This document shows positions 325 to 2,726 of a stretch of 7,382 nucleotides of DNA, in pieces. The position numbers and the translations under genes were made by a program. The notes below the pieces were generated by a model, which ran no database searches, had not been told where the DNA came from, and saw nothing but the letters and a program-made list of their open reading frames with translations. Within the stretch, counting starts at the first letter, position 1, and the number at the start of each line of letters is the position of its first letter. This DNA is from Candidatus Desantisiibacteriota bacterium (GTDB lineage Bacteria > JACRDZ01), in contig JACQWU010000087.1 of assembly GCA_016209155.1 (NCBI GenBank), positions 1-7,382 on the forward strand, read 5' to 3'.

Positions 325-333
325 CCATCCTTA
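325..333 (-). promoter_or_regulatory. Shine-Dalgarno of the lipoprotein gene, overlapping the Na/Pi gene stop
   Basis: The minus strand reads TAAGGATGG. TAA (333-331) ends the Na/Pi gene, and AAGGA (332-328) sits 9 nt before the ATG at 318. This fixes the start of the truncated gene at the window edge and suggests coupled translation. Confidence 0.8.
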
Positions 334-2046
334 TTTTTTATTAATTAAAATATATGACATGTTAACTATTATATTGTTAATACGAGCAATGTTACCTAAG
401 TAATCAAGATGTACAGAACTGGTTTCGATGGATTCATGCAGTCCTTCCTGCAGGCGTTTAAAATGCGAAATCCGGAAATTATTATCCATCTGTATTATTT
501 CACTTTTACGTTTAATGATTTCACCGGCGAGTTTTTGGTTGCCGGTGGCTATTGCATCCAGAATCATATCCATAGAATTTAAAACATATTTATACATAGC
601 TTTTAGTTCAGATACACCTTCTTTTGAAAATTGCATACCGCTTTTTATTTTTTTTCTTGCGATATGCATAAGATTATTTACTATGATATCTCCAATATTT
701 TCCAGTTCATTTACAACTGAAACAAGAACAATTTCCTGATGTGCCTGTTCGTGTGTTAATGTTTCAGAGGAAATGCGGGTAAGATAGCTGATAATTTTTC
801 CCTGAAGATTATCAAGAATATCATCCTTTTTAATAATTTGATCAATAAGGTTTTCATCATCAGTTTCAAGTACTGTATAGGTATCCTGAAGCATCTCCTG
901 AACAAATCCTGACATTCTCATGGTTTCCCTGAAAGCTTGTCCTAAAGCAATATCAGGAGTCTCAAGCACACTATCATTTAGAAAACGGGGATGTTCATCT
1001 GAATATATTTCGGTTTCGCCGGGAATTATGTGATTTAAAAATTTTTCCATGACGCTGATAAATGGCAGTATAATAATAGCCATTGAAATATTAAATAACG
1101 TATGGAAATTAGCAATACTATGTGCTGCATCAGATGCTGTATACAGAATTATAATCTCCCAGTAATCCATAAGCGGAATAAAAAGTAAAGCCCCAATTAA
1201 TTTGATCAGGAGATTTGCTACTGCGACCCTTCTGCTTTCAGCTTTATATTGCTGAATTCCATACATAAATACCACAAGCGTTGAGCCTATATTCGCGCCG
1301 ATTACAGCGGGTATGGCCGCACGAAAAAGATACGGGGATGGATTATGAAAGGATATTGCAAGAAAAATTCCTATAATTGCGGTACTACTGTGCAAAAGAG
1401 TTGTCATGACTGCGGAAATGATTAAACCATATAAAGGTTTATTAATAAAAAGATGAAGTATTTCTTCGTATTGACTAAAATAGGCAACAGAAGCAGTGTT
1501 TTGAGAAATAACTTTCATACCGAAAAATGCAAGCCCGATTCCGAAAATTATGCGGCCTAAATAAATAAATTTTTTCTGTTTGGATAAAAATAATATAAAA
1601 AAACCAATTGTCAGAATAAAAGCGGAATATTTTAAAATATTAAAGGCGAAAATTTGGACAAAAAGAGTATTTCCGATTCCTGCTCCAAGTATAAGACCAA
1701 TAGCCTGATTCAGATTGATTAAAGCTGCATTGGTAAATCCCGTAATCATATATACTGCAGCTGATCCGCTTTGAAGCATAAATGTAATTGCTATCCCGAC
1801 AAAAATTGATAGCCATTTATTTTTAGTAACAATGGAAATTATTACGCGAATTTTACTGCCTGCCAGATTTTTTAACCCATCATCGATAGTGTTTATTCCA
1901 TATAAAAATATTGCAAGTCCGCCGATTATCTCAACAAAGAATAATATACTTTTTTCTATGGTTTCCTCAAGTCCTGCTGCTTTTATAGCCATAGGAAACG
2001 CTAATAATATTAGTACAAAAATAACTATTTTTGATATTCTTTTCAT
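331..2046 (-). CDS. Na+/phosphate cotransporter-family protein (PF02690 type) with C-terminal PhoU-like domain
   Basis: Inner-membrane protein of 571 residues, the NptA/YjbB type, thought to move inorganic phosphate with Na+; several bacterial members act in export. It starts with a signal-peptide-like segment (1-23, ending AIKAA) before the family's usual first block GGLAIFLYGINTIDDGL (42-58). The duplicated transport core shows QSGSAA (92-97) paired with HSSTA (219-223), and GAGIGNT (121-127) paired with GANIGST (250-256), then ANFHTLFN (312-319). The family's repeats normally carry QSSS, so both copies depart by one residue. From about 365 to 560 the protein is soluble and helical, with a PhoU-like signature ELENIGDIIVNNL (447-459) and a second, weaker match near HLDYLGNIARIN (546-557). 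Full length, no frameshift seen. The site AGGG (2054-2057), 7 nt before the ATG, is moderate. It is separated from the upstream gene by the repeat element and followed 12 nt later by a lipoprotein gene. Confidence 0.9.
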   Translation of the reverse strand: MKRISKIVIFVLILLAFPMAIKAAGLEETIEKSILFFVEIIGGLAIFLYGINTIDDGLKNLAGSKIRVIISIVTKNKWLSIFVGIAITFMLQSGSAAVYMITGFTNAALINLNQAIGLILGAGIGNTLFVQIFAFNILKYSAFILTIGFFILFLSKQKKFIYLGRIIFGIGLAFFGMKVISQNTASVAYFSQYEEILHLFINKPLYGLIISAVMTTLLHSSTAIIGIFLAISFHNPSPYLFRAAIPAVIGANIGSTLVVFMYGIQQYKAESRRVAVANLLIKLIGALLFIPLMDYWEIIILYTASDAAHSIANFHTLFNISMAIIILPFISVMEKFLNHIIPGETEIYSDEHPRFLNDSVLETPDIALGQAFRETMRMSGFVQEMLQDTYTVLETDDENLIDQIIKKDDILDNLQGKIISYLTRISSETLTHEQAHQEIVLVSVVNELENIGDIIVNNLMHIARKKIKSGMQFSKEGVSELKAMYKYVLNSMDMILDAIATGNQKLAGEIIKRKSEIIQMDNNFRISHFKRLQEGLHESIETSSVHLDYLGNIARINNIIVNMSYILINKK

Positions 2047-2087
2047 GTATTTACCCTGTTGTTAATTTTAGCAATGTAAAAATTTAA

Positions 2088-2163
2088 CCACAGAGACCAC
2101 AGAGAAACTATTAAATATTAGTGAACACAGGGAAATTATTAGTTTTTTTCTGTTTTCTCTGTG
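2088..2163. repeat. CACAGAGA repeat element with a long inverted pair, in the only large intergenic gap
   Basis: The 119-nt gap 2047-2165 holds two tandem 9-bp copies of CCACAGAGA (2088-2096 and 2097-2105), a degenerate copy CACAGGGA (2126-2133) and an inverted copy. CACAGAGAAA at 2098-2107 is exactly complementary to TTTCTCTGTG at 2154-2163, giving a perfect 10-bp stem around a 46-nt loop. Inside it, 2105-2114 and 2136-2145 are complementary at nine of ten positions, so the pairing can extend with a bulge. On the transcribed (minus) strand the structure is followed by TTAAATTTTT, so partial transcript termination or RNA stabilisation is possible but unproven. I recall similar CACAGAGA-rich repeats between genes of unrelated bacteria; that recollection is not checked. 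No ORF or transposase is present in the element. Confidence 0.75.
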
Positions 2164-2165
2164 AT

Positions 2166-2726
2166 TCATTTTTTTGTAGATGTAGAGAGTGTCAGAAATT
2201 CGCCGAAAATCCAGCCGTATGTATTATCGGATAAAAGAATTTTATACCAAAAGTCTTGTTTGTCATCTACAAGGAGTTGTTTGTTAGTTTTTGAAACTAC
2301 TGGAAAATGGTCGTCCTTAAACACTTTACCGGTAATTTGAGTGCCAAGATCGAATTCATTTCTTATATGCACATTATTTGTATTCACTGTGCCTGTCAGA
2401 TTTTCAACAGGTTCTTCAACGATTAAAAAATGGCCATAAACCCATGCTTTTTGTCCCTGATATTCAATCCTATACCAATAATCCTCCATATCCTGAATTT
2501 TTTCTTTAGTCTGTGTGCGTTCAAAAATAGAAATTTTTTCTCCTTTATAAAGATTCCCTAATGTTCGTGATGAAACATTTTTATCTTCTCTTACTCTAAT
2601 TCCATTTTCCATTACTTTTCCTAAAAAGGTCAGTATCTTCTTTTCAGGTTTAGTTCCTGATGTTTCTTCAGCATGCAGAAATAGTACATTGGTTAGTAAC
2701 AATAATAATACCAGTATTTTTTTCAT
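2166..2726 (-). CDS. Secreted tandem SH3b-domain protein
   Basis: A 186-residue exported protein. Residues 1-19 form a Sec signal peptide (MKK, a Leu-rich core, probable cleavage after LHA); there is no Cys, so it is not a lipoprotein. Two bacterial SH3 domains follow. The first (about 34-103) has GIRVRED (42-48), DYWYRIEY (82-89) and AWVYGHFL (94-101). The second (about 111-180) has NNVHIRNE (117-124), DFWYKILL (158-165) and YGWIFGEFL (170-178). SH3b domains of this kind bind peptidoglycan or envelope ligands in other proteins, but no catalytic domain is attached here, so the protein is probably a binding or scaffolding factor in the periplasm or at the surface; this is inference. A strong AAGGAG site with good spacing fixes the start. 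The stop TGA (2168-2166) lies only 2 nt from the inverted-repeat arm, so the short STSTKK tail could have been shaped by arrival of that element. Confidence 0.85.
   Translation of the reverse strand: MKKILVLLLLLTNVLFLHAEETSGTKPEKKILTFLGKVMENGIRVREDKNVSSRTLGNLYKGEKISIFERTQTKEKIQDMEDYWYRIEYQGQKAWVYGHFLIVEEPVENLTGTVNTNNVHIRNEFDLGTQITGKVFKDDHFPVVSKTNKQLLVDDKQDFWYKILLSDNTYGWIFGEFLTLSTSTKK

Follow-up and report, generated by a model that had tools for sequence, protein, structure and literature searches.

A decayed miniature repeat placed before a Na/Pi cotransporter gene is probably derived from a mobile element encoding a GxxExxY nuclease

The repeat that occupies the gap between the SH3b and Na/Pi genes of the window (the whole 7,382-nt stretch of DNA analysed here) is very probably, at roughly 80%, a non-autonomous and partly decayed copy of a GxxExxY mobile element, with end B placed about 23 nt upstream of a start codon. 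The window copy is a derivative of the GxxExxY element (TIGR04256) and not a member; the GxxExxY gene is absent from it, and the start codon region alone is kept. The status of a miniature inverted-repeat transposable element (MITE) is of a known kind, while the parent element, the placement rule and the spread are undescribed as far as the open literature shows.

Structure of the intergenic repeat

The gaps between the called open reading frames of the window measure 12, 119, 12, 21, 22, 14 and 10 nt. The odd one, at 2047-2165, had been singled out in the initial annotation for its 119 nt beside gaps of 10 to 22 nt elsewhere in the window, and for the direct and inverted copies of a word that fill it. 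All three sites of CACAGAGA in the window do lie inside this gap (2089-2096, 2098-2105 and, on the minus strand, 2156-2163), compared with 0.05 expected, and none of 200 shuffles reaches three. The perfect 10-bp stem reported earlier (2098-2107 with 2154-2163) is present as well, nested in a 30-nt pair that is 80% complementary (2078-2107/2145-2174), and the minus-strand RNA folds better than shuffled sequences (z -3.3 for 2047-2165 and z -3.5 for 2044-2180).

One arm had been described as ending 2 nt from the SH3b stop codon (2166-2168). This distance is correct, but the element does not end there; its remnant runs across the stop codon to about 2175 (Table 1). The remnant of end A holds both the SH3b stop (2168-2166) and a vestigial GxxExxY ATG (2169-2167), which overlap as ATGA. 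Since the GxxExxY gene begins at the ATG in end A, the 33-codon open frame of the window is best read as a GxxExxY relic; its intact counterpart in genome G058 begins MKPQRPQSN... The overlap of the SH3b TGA with the ATG of the element suggests that SH3b now takes its end from the element. Neither an outer end A nor a target duplication can be recognised in the window copy, whose sole remaining terminal inverted repeat is end B; exactly 23 nt separate end B from the Na/Pi ATG.

Table 1 Features of the SH3b-Na/Pi junction in the window
Feature	Position	Strand	Basis
MITE-like element, recognisable part; outer end A (GGTAnTGTCAAAAGT) lost or diverged	2070..2175	-	Alignment with complete copies from the window's genome and other phyla
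End B, CTCTGTGGTTAAATTTTTACATTGCT, facing the Na/Pi gene	2070..2095	-	nhmmer, end-B model, E 8e-8
23-nt leader from end B to the Na/Pi start codon (2046-2044); weak Shine-Dalgarno CAGGG	2047..2069	-	Sequence; spacing as in 55 copies
Two direct CACAGAGA copies, inner arm of end B	2089..2105	+	Sequence words
Inverted copy, arm of end A; pairs perfectly with 2098-2107	2154..2163	-	Stem search
End A remnant AAAAAAATGAATCACAGAGA	2156..2175	-	BLAST of end A (match 2124-2175, 87%); alignment
Putative relic open frame, 33 codons, MNHRENRKKL.. from the old GxxExxY ATG	2068..2169	-	Sequence, hand translation
Na/Pi cotransporter gene (PF02690, PhoU domain), downstream neighbour	331..2046	-	ORF call, domain match
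SH3-domain protein (SH3b) gene, upstream neighbour; stop codon within the element	2166..2726	-	ORF call, domain match

A family of mobile repeats in the source genome

The assembly of the window's genome comprises 3.08 Mb in 352 contigs, with an estimated completeness of 79%. The initial annotation had proposed to look for the word across it; CCACAGAGA has 36 sites compared with 6 for its reversed control, so the word is not confined to a single place. BLAST with the gap sequence gives 54 matches in this genome, and a 21-base pattern of end B, allowing up to three mismatches, gives 27 sites compared with 1 for the reversed pattern. More than 30 copies are present, mostly 60 to 220 bp long where both ends are visible. 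They form one family with two distinct ends, end A (GGTAnTGTCAAAA..SD-ATG-CCACAGAG, where SD is the Shine-Dalgarno sequence) and end B (CTCTGTGGTTAAnTTTTGACAnTACC); fuller readings are GGTACTGTCAAAAGTAATATGAAAAAAGGATAAAAAAATGAACCACAGAG for end A and CTCTGTGGTTAATTTTTGACATTACC for end B. In complete copies, the outermost 13 bases of the two ends are inverted repeats of each other (GGTAnTGTCAAAA / TTTTGACAnTACC).

Two-ended copies are flanked by target duplications of 8 bp. The flanks of 18 such copies match at an average of 6.3 of 8 bases, and the shuffle maximum is 4.4. Perfect duplications occur in three or more genomes, including AAATATGG (contig C290 of the window's genome), CACCATAT (Nitrospinae) and TGTTTTAA (Planctomycetes), and also GTCTAAAA and AAATGTTA in genome G058. 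The two distinct ends and the 8-bp target duplications identify a MITE-like mobile repeat, one of the natures that had been proposed for the gap on first inspection. The family is short and multicopy without a transposase of its own, has terminal inverted repeats and a duplication of constant length, and has a longer relative with the same ends, which are features expected of MITEs. Several copies are worn to 18-20 nt of end B (contigs C243 and C74).

A second palindrome, GTAGAGACGCAAAATTTTGCGTCTCTAC, is nested in several copies of the element (contigs C65, C81, C169, C142 and C180 of the window's genome) and is also found elsewhere (L248:275-315). A related subfamily, distinguished by its longer arms (CCACAGAGgcacacagaCACAGAG .. 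CTCTGTGcctcagtgtCTCTGTGG), is found at C44:6738 and C142:3660 of the same genome, with a start codon about 50 nt or less away.

Distribution across phyla

With up to three mismatches, end B is present in 3 of 386 genomes, of which one is that of the window and two belong to other phyla. Among 84,980 named species genomes, an exact IUPAC scan returned 15 loci in eight metagenome-assembled genomes (MAGs), labelled Aerophobetes, Nitrospinae, Omnitrophota (two), Thermodesulfobacteriota, Proteobacteria, Nitrospira and Planctomycetes. The same end B is found in ten genomes in total (the window's genome, G058 and the eight MAGs) from at least eight phyla, which bears out the earlier remark that similar words occur in distant bacteria. 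Since these genomes are nearly all metagenome-assembled, single taxon assignments may be wrong; the pattern is independent of any one of them. Copies precede a thioredoxin-like gene in two phyla (contig C348 of the window's genome and Nitrospinae MHDQ01000274.1). The lineage of the window is isolated, with 40 relatives examined and three other genomes of its phylum in the collection, and a search of genome contigs with the Na/Pi protein returned no named relatives.

Small intergenic repeats of this kind occur in many bacterial genomes and are unexplained. One study mentions multicopy sequences in Geobacter that resemble ones in many other genomes (PMC2700814). Literature matches to the CACAGAG word were confined to unrelated papers.

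Placement before start codons

For the analysis of placement, 55 copies were picked by end-B sequence alone. Cut or short frames made manual assignment of the start codon necessary in six cases, and a copy that has no open frame was not counted. The copies face the downstream gene in strict orientation, and the distance from end B to the next start codon averages about 23 nt (21 copies at 23 nt, 13 at 24 nt and 8 at 22 nt). All but three lie at 20-27 nt and none beyond 28 nt, and most fall within 2 nt, for which the chance is 2-5%. Among the 52 copies that have a clear SD and are spaced at 15-30 nt, the mean is 23.1 nt and the standard deviation (sd) 1.4 nt. An automatic start finder placed 28 of 33 copies in the window's genome at 19-27 nt, whereas random positions gave 4.5% and the mirrored direction gave 3.8% (P about 5e-33). 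Uniform intergenic insertion, with genes called by a simple script, would give such spacing in 2.3%.

The spacing is unchanged where the upstream non-coding DNA amounts to 60-236 nt, so lack of room is not its cause, and these copies disfavour the idea that the element sits in the only place with room. The distances from end B to the SD and from the SD to the ATG are anticorrelated (-0.78). Further, the sd of the distance from end B to the ATG is 1.37 nt, compared with a mean of 2.83 nt in a model anchored on the SD, and none of 20,000 permutations is as low. The anticorrelation, together with a spread below every permutation, indicates that the anchor is the start codon, or its binder, and not the SD motif. 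We also considered the TTGACA of end B as a sigma-70 -35 box and rejected it; by eye, it would put the -10 box on the SD and the transcription start at the ATG. The open literature on insertion sites, MITEs and multicopy repeats yielded nothing that matches the placement rule.

A parent element encoding GxxExxY

On contig C144, genome G058 has a 585-bp full-length copy with the same ends and the duplication cttgctat/cttgcgat. Its sole gene encodes a GxxExxY protein (TIGR04256, 7e-42; PF13366 PDDEXK_3, 2e-40). The first codons of this gene are out of frame in the 585-bp copy; another copy in the same genome (L306, contig C259) reads through. A full-length copy with related ends is present in genome G096 (L296), where a start codon lies 25 nt past end B, counted by eye. 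The element's own gene starts about 24-25 nt inside end A, and in short copies from Omnitrophota, pieces of the GxxExxY C-terminus adjoin end B.

At L306, the host leader TTTTTTTATCAGGGTGAAAATATGAA (26 nt, with SD and ATG) stands on both sides of a GxxExxY element lacking end A, and GxxExxY is translated from the left leader copy. This locus may be a record of an element taking over a start region. Elsewhere in G058 (L242, C145:13410), end A occurs alone, and a long host-like gene now begins at its ATG.

Among 64 GxxExxY copies, 61-64 conserve the residues D, ExK and QxxxY, suggesting that the protein is probably an active nuclease of the PD-(D/E)XK type. Judged by the D/ExK/QxxxY motif alone, it would bear a likeness to RecB/Cas4 nucleases. 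A PDB sequence search returned no relative of GxxExxY.

GxxExxY loci in other genomes

GxxExxY genes were found in 31 of 145 genomes, with up to 11 matches each. At 54 of 65 loci (27 genomes), flanking inverted repeats are above all 20 shuffles, many of them made of short periodic words, and a same-strand start codon lies within 60 nt of the right arm at 20 of 48 well-armed loci, compared with 3 in the mirror. In Sphingomonas parapaucimobilis, GxxExxY is located between fabD and fabG, with the fabG ATG 22 nt after the arm; in S. paeninsulae, fabD and fabG are about 30 nt apart with no GxxExxY between them. In Bacteroides finegoldii, the left arm directly follows the stop codon of radA, and about 5 nt separate the right arm from the next ATG, indicating that a spacing of 23 nt is not universal among GxxExxY elements. 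Longer direct duplications at GxxExxY loci were clearly above shuffles at L306 alone; the match at L309 falls within the repeated words themselves. One region of genome G143 (C1:786000-828500) has eight GxxExxY matches in about 42 kb, some of them tandem or truncated.

A single GxxExxY gene was found in the window's genome. It is of a different subfamily and has CACAGAG-type hairpins on both sides; the ATG of a radC-like gene (named by eye) is 27 nt after the arm of this locus. Since the only GxxExxY gene found in this assembly, which is 79% complete, belongs to another subfamily, the mover of the copies in the window's genome is unseen. Among the open papers searched, the word GxxExxY occurs in two, and no description of its mobility was found; one of them names it in passing, next to a reverse transcriptase.

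Origin and placement of the window copy

The full element consists, in order, of repeat A (GGTAnTGTCAAAA), an SD and ATG, a CACAGAG arm, the GxxExxY gene, a CTCTGTG arm and repeat B (TTTTGACAnTACC), bordered by the 8-bp target duplication. Insertion would occur by an activity involving GxxExxY or an unseen transposase, followed by decay; that GxxExxY itself takes part in the mobility is a weaker inference. The window copy was presumably already a deletion derivative when it entered the junction between SH3b and Na/Pi, where it then lost its outer end A, and SH3b would now terminate in the old start codon of the element (ATGA). The upstream edge of the leader that the ribosome covers is most likely either the target of new insertions or the only place in which they are kept, and neither neighbouring gene would be harmed there. 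Since the spacing is constant with respect to the start codon but not the SD, it probably reflects the translation-initiation region. The transcribed hairpin may be cleaved much like rRNA intervening sequences.

Several other accounts of the mover and of the spacing have to be weighed. A conventional but unseen transposase could recognise the 13-bp ends and make the 8-bp duplications with GxxExxY as a passenger, and we consider this quite conceivable, if somewhat short of probable. Terminal inverted repeats with 8-bp duplications are typical of DDE transposition, which the ends and duplications here fit, and the many short copies without a gene indicate that the gene is not needed in cis. However, no longer element with the same ends and a transposase is present among the copies from three genomes, and highly different GxxExxY genes in many phyla have arms of their own, which ties the gene and not the ends to the behaviour. 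Selection might also suffice, although we are inclined to doubt it: insertion would be wide, with survival only of copies that keep about 23 nt of leader free beyond end B, since nearer copies would block the 30S subunit and farther ones would hit the upstream gene or its promoter. The start of the element's own gene, about 24-25 nt inside end A, looks as if initiation needs 23-25 nt beside the stem, and tight operons offer few harmless sites. However, selection explains the lower bound more easily than the upper one, as the spacing is equally tight with 60-236 nt upstream and never exceeds 28 nt; decayed copies keep it too, though fixed insertion also predicts this. Because orientation is strict and some copies have ample room, the data lean to targeting over selection without separating them. 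Targeting by the SD motif in the DNA would account for the SD hexamer that starts exactly 12 nt after end B in many copies. We regard it as very unlikely, as the start codon is still at 20-24 nt where the SD is at 7-9 nt, and the predicted spread is 2.8 nt compared with 1.4 nt.

A different proposal is that the repeat between SH3b and Na/Pi has been kept as a regulatory RNA, whether attenuator, processing site or stability hairpin. It is intergenic and forms a strong hairpin (z -3.5) just before the ribosome-binding region, and the transcript attenuator suggested in the initial annotation has a hairpin above chance in its favour. However, no intrinsic terminator (a GC-rich hairpin with a T run) was found in 1900-2400, and Rfam gave no match at gathering thresholds. 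Copies of the family precede genes unrelated to one another, and wear has left several with 18-20 nt of end B, unlike a conserved regulator. A regulatory effect of the repeat is possible, but its retention for such a role seems unlikely; the protein-binding site that had also been suggested found no support. A chance or low-complexity artefact, for which an AT-rich genome and short words might speak, can be practically dismissed. It is already refuted by 36 sites against 6, 27 against 1, 0.05 expected in the window, and duplications above all shuffles.

We suggest, tentatively and with some doubt, that GxxExxY genes might represent an unrecognised, pan-bacterial class of mobile element with a lone RecB/Cas4-like nuclease and insertion set by the initiating ribosome (in this family about 23 nt ahead of the start codon and facing the gene), whose arms would be the source of widespread intergenic words such as CCACAGAG, CCGCAGATTACGCAGATT, CCACAAAGGCACAAAG and CACGGATTAGCACGGAT. 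The link to a parent with a single nuclease and a constant distance to the start codon, kept across at least eight phyla, places GxxExxY in a concrete setting. It also raises the question of how the insertion of DNA can respect a boundary that only translation defines. Were insertion truly guided, its mode of targeting would be unlike any known to us and useful for placing DNA without breaking genes.

Comparison with known systems

ERIC and REP-type repeats resemble this element in being palindromic and located between operon genes. They are nevertheless different sequences, REP accompanies Y1 transposases (RAYT), and we know of no start-codon spacing rule for either. The GxxExxY family (TIGR04256 / PF13366 PDDEXK_3), encoded here by full-length copies, is otherwise known as the name of a protein family.

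Intervening sequences of 23S rRNA with the S23 protein, as in Coxiella, have one small ORF and a long end-stem and are harmless to the host RNA (PMC4990558). The element shares with them a selfish nature, one small ORF and complementary ends that form a long stem. However, intervening sequences are located in 23S rRNA, encode a four-helix-bundle protein and are cut by RNase III, whereas this element is found in mRNA leaders and has a nuclease; the window copy lies between protein genes, and its parent encodes a PD-(D/E)XK nuclease.

Bacterial MITEs, like this element, are short and multicopy, with terminal inverted repeats, target duplications and no transposase gene (PMC10969869). The text of that review makes no mention of a start codon or Shine-Dalgarno sequence. 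Unlike bacterial MITEs, this element has a parent that bears a GxxExxY nuclease and no recognised transposase, and it is found in strict orientation with a set spacing to the start codon.
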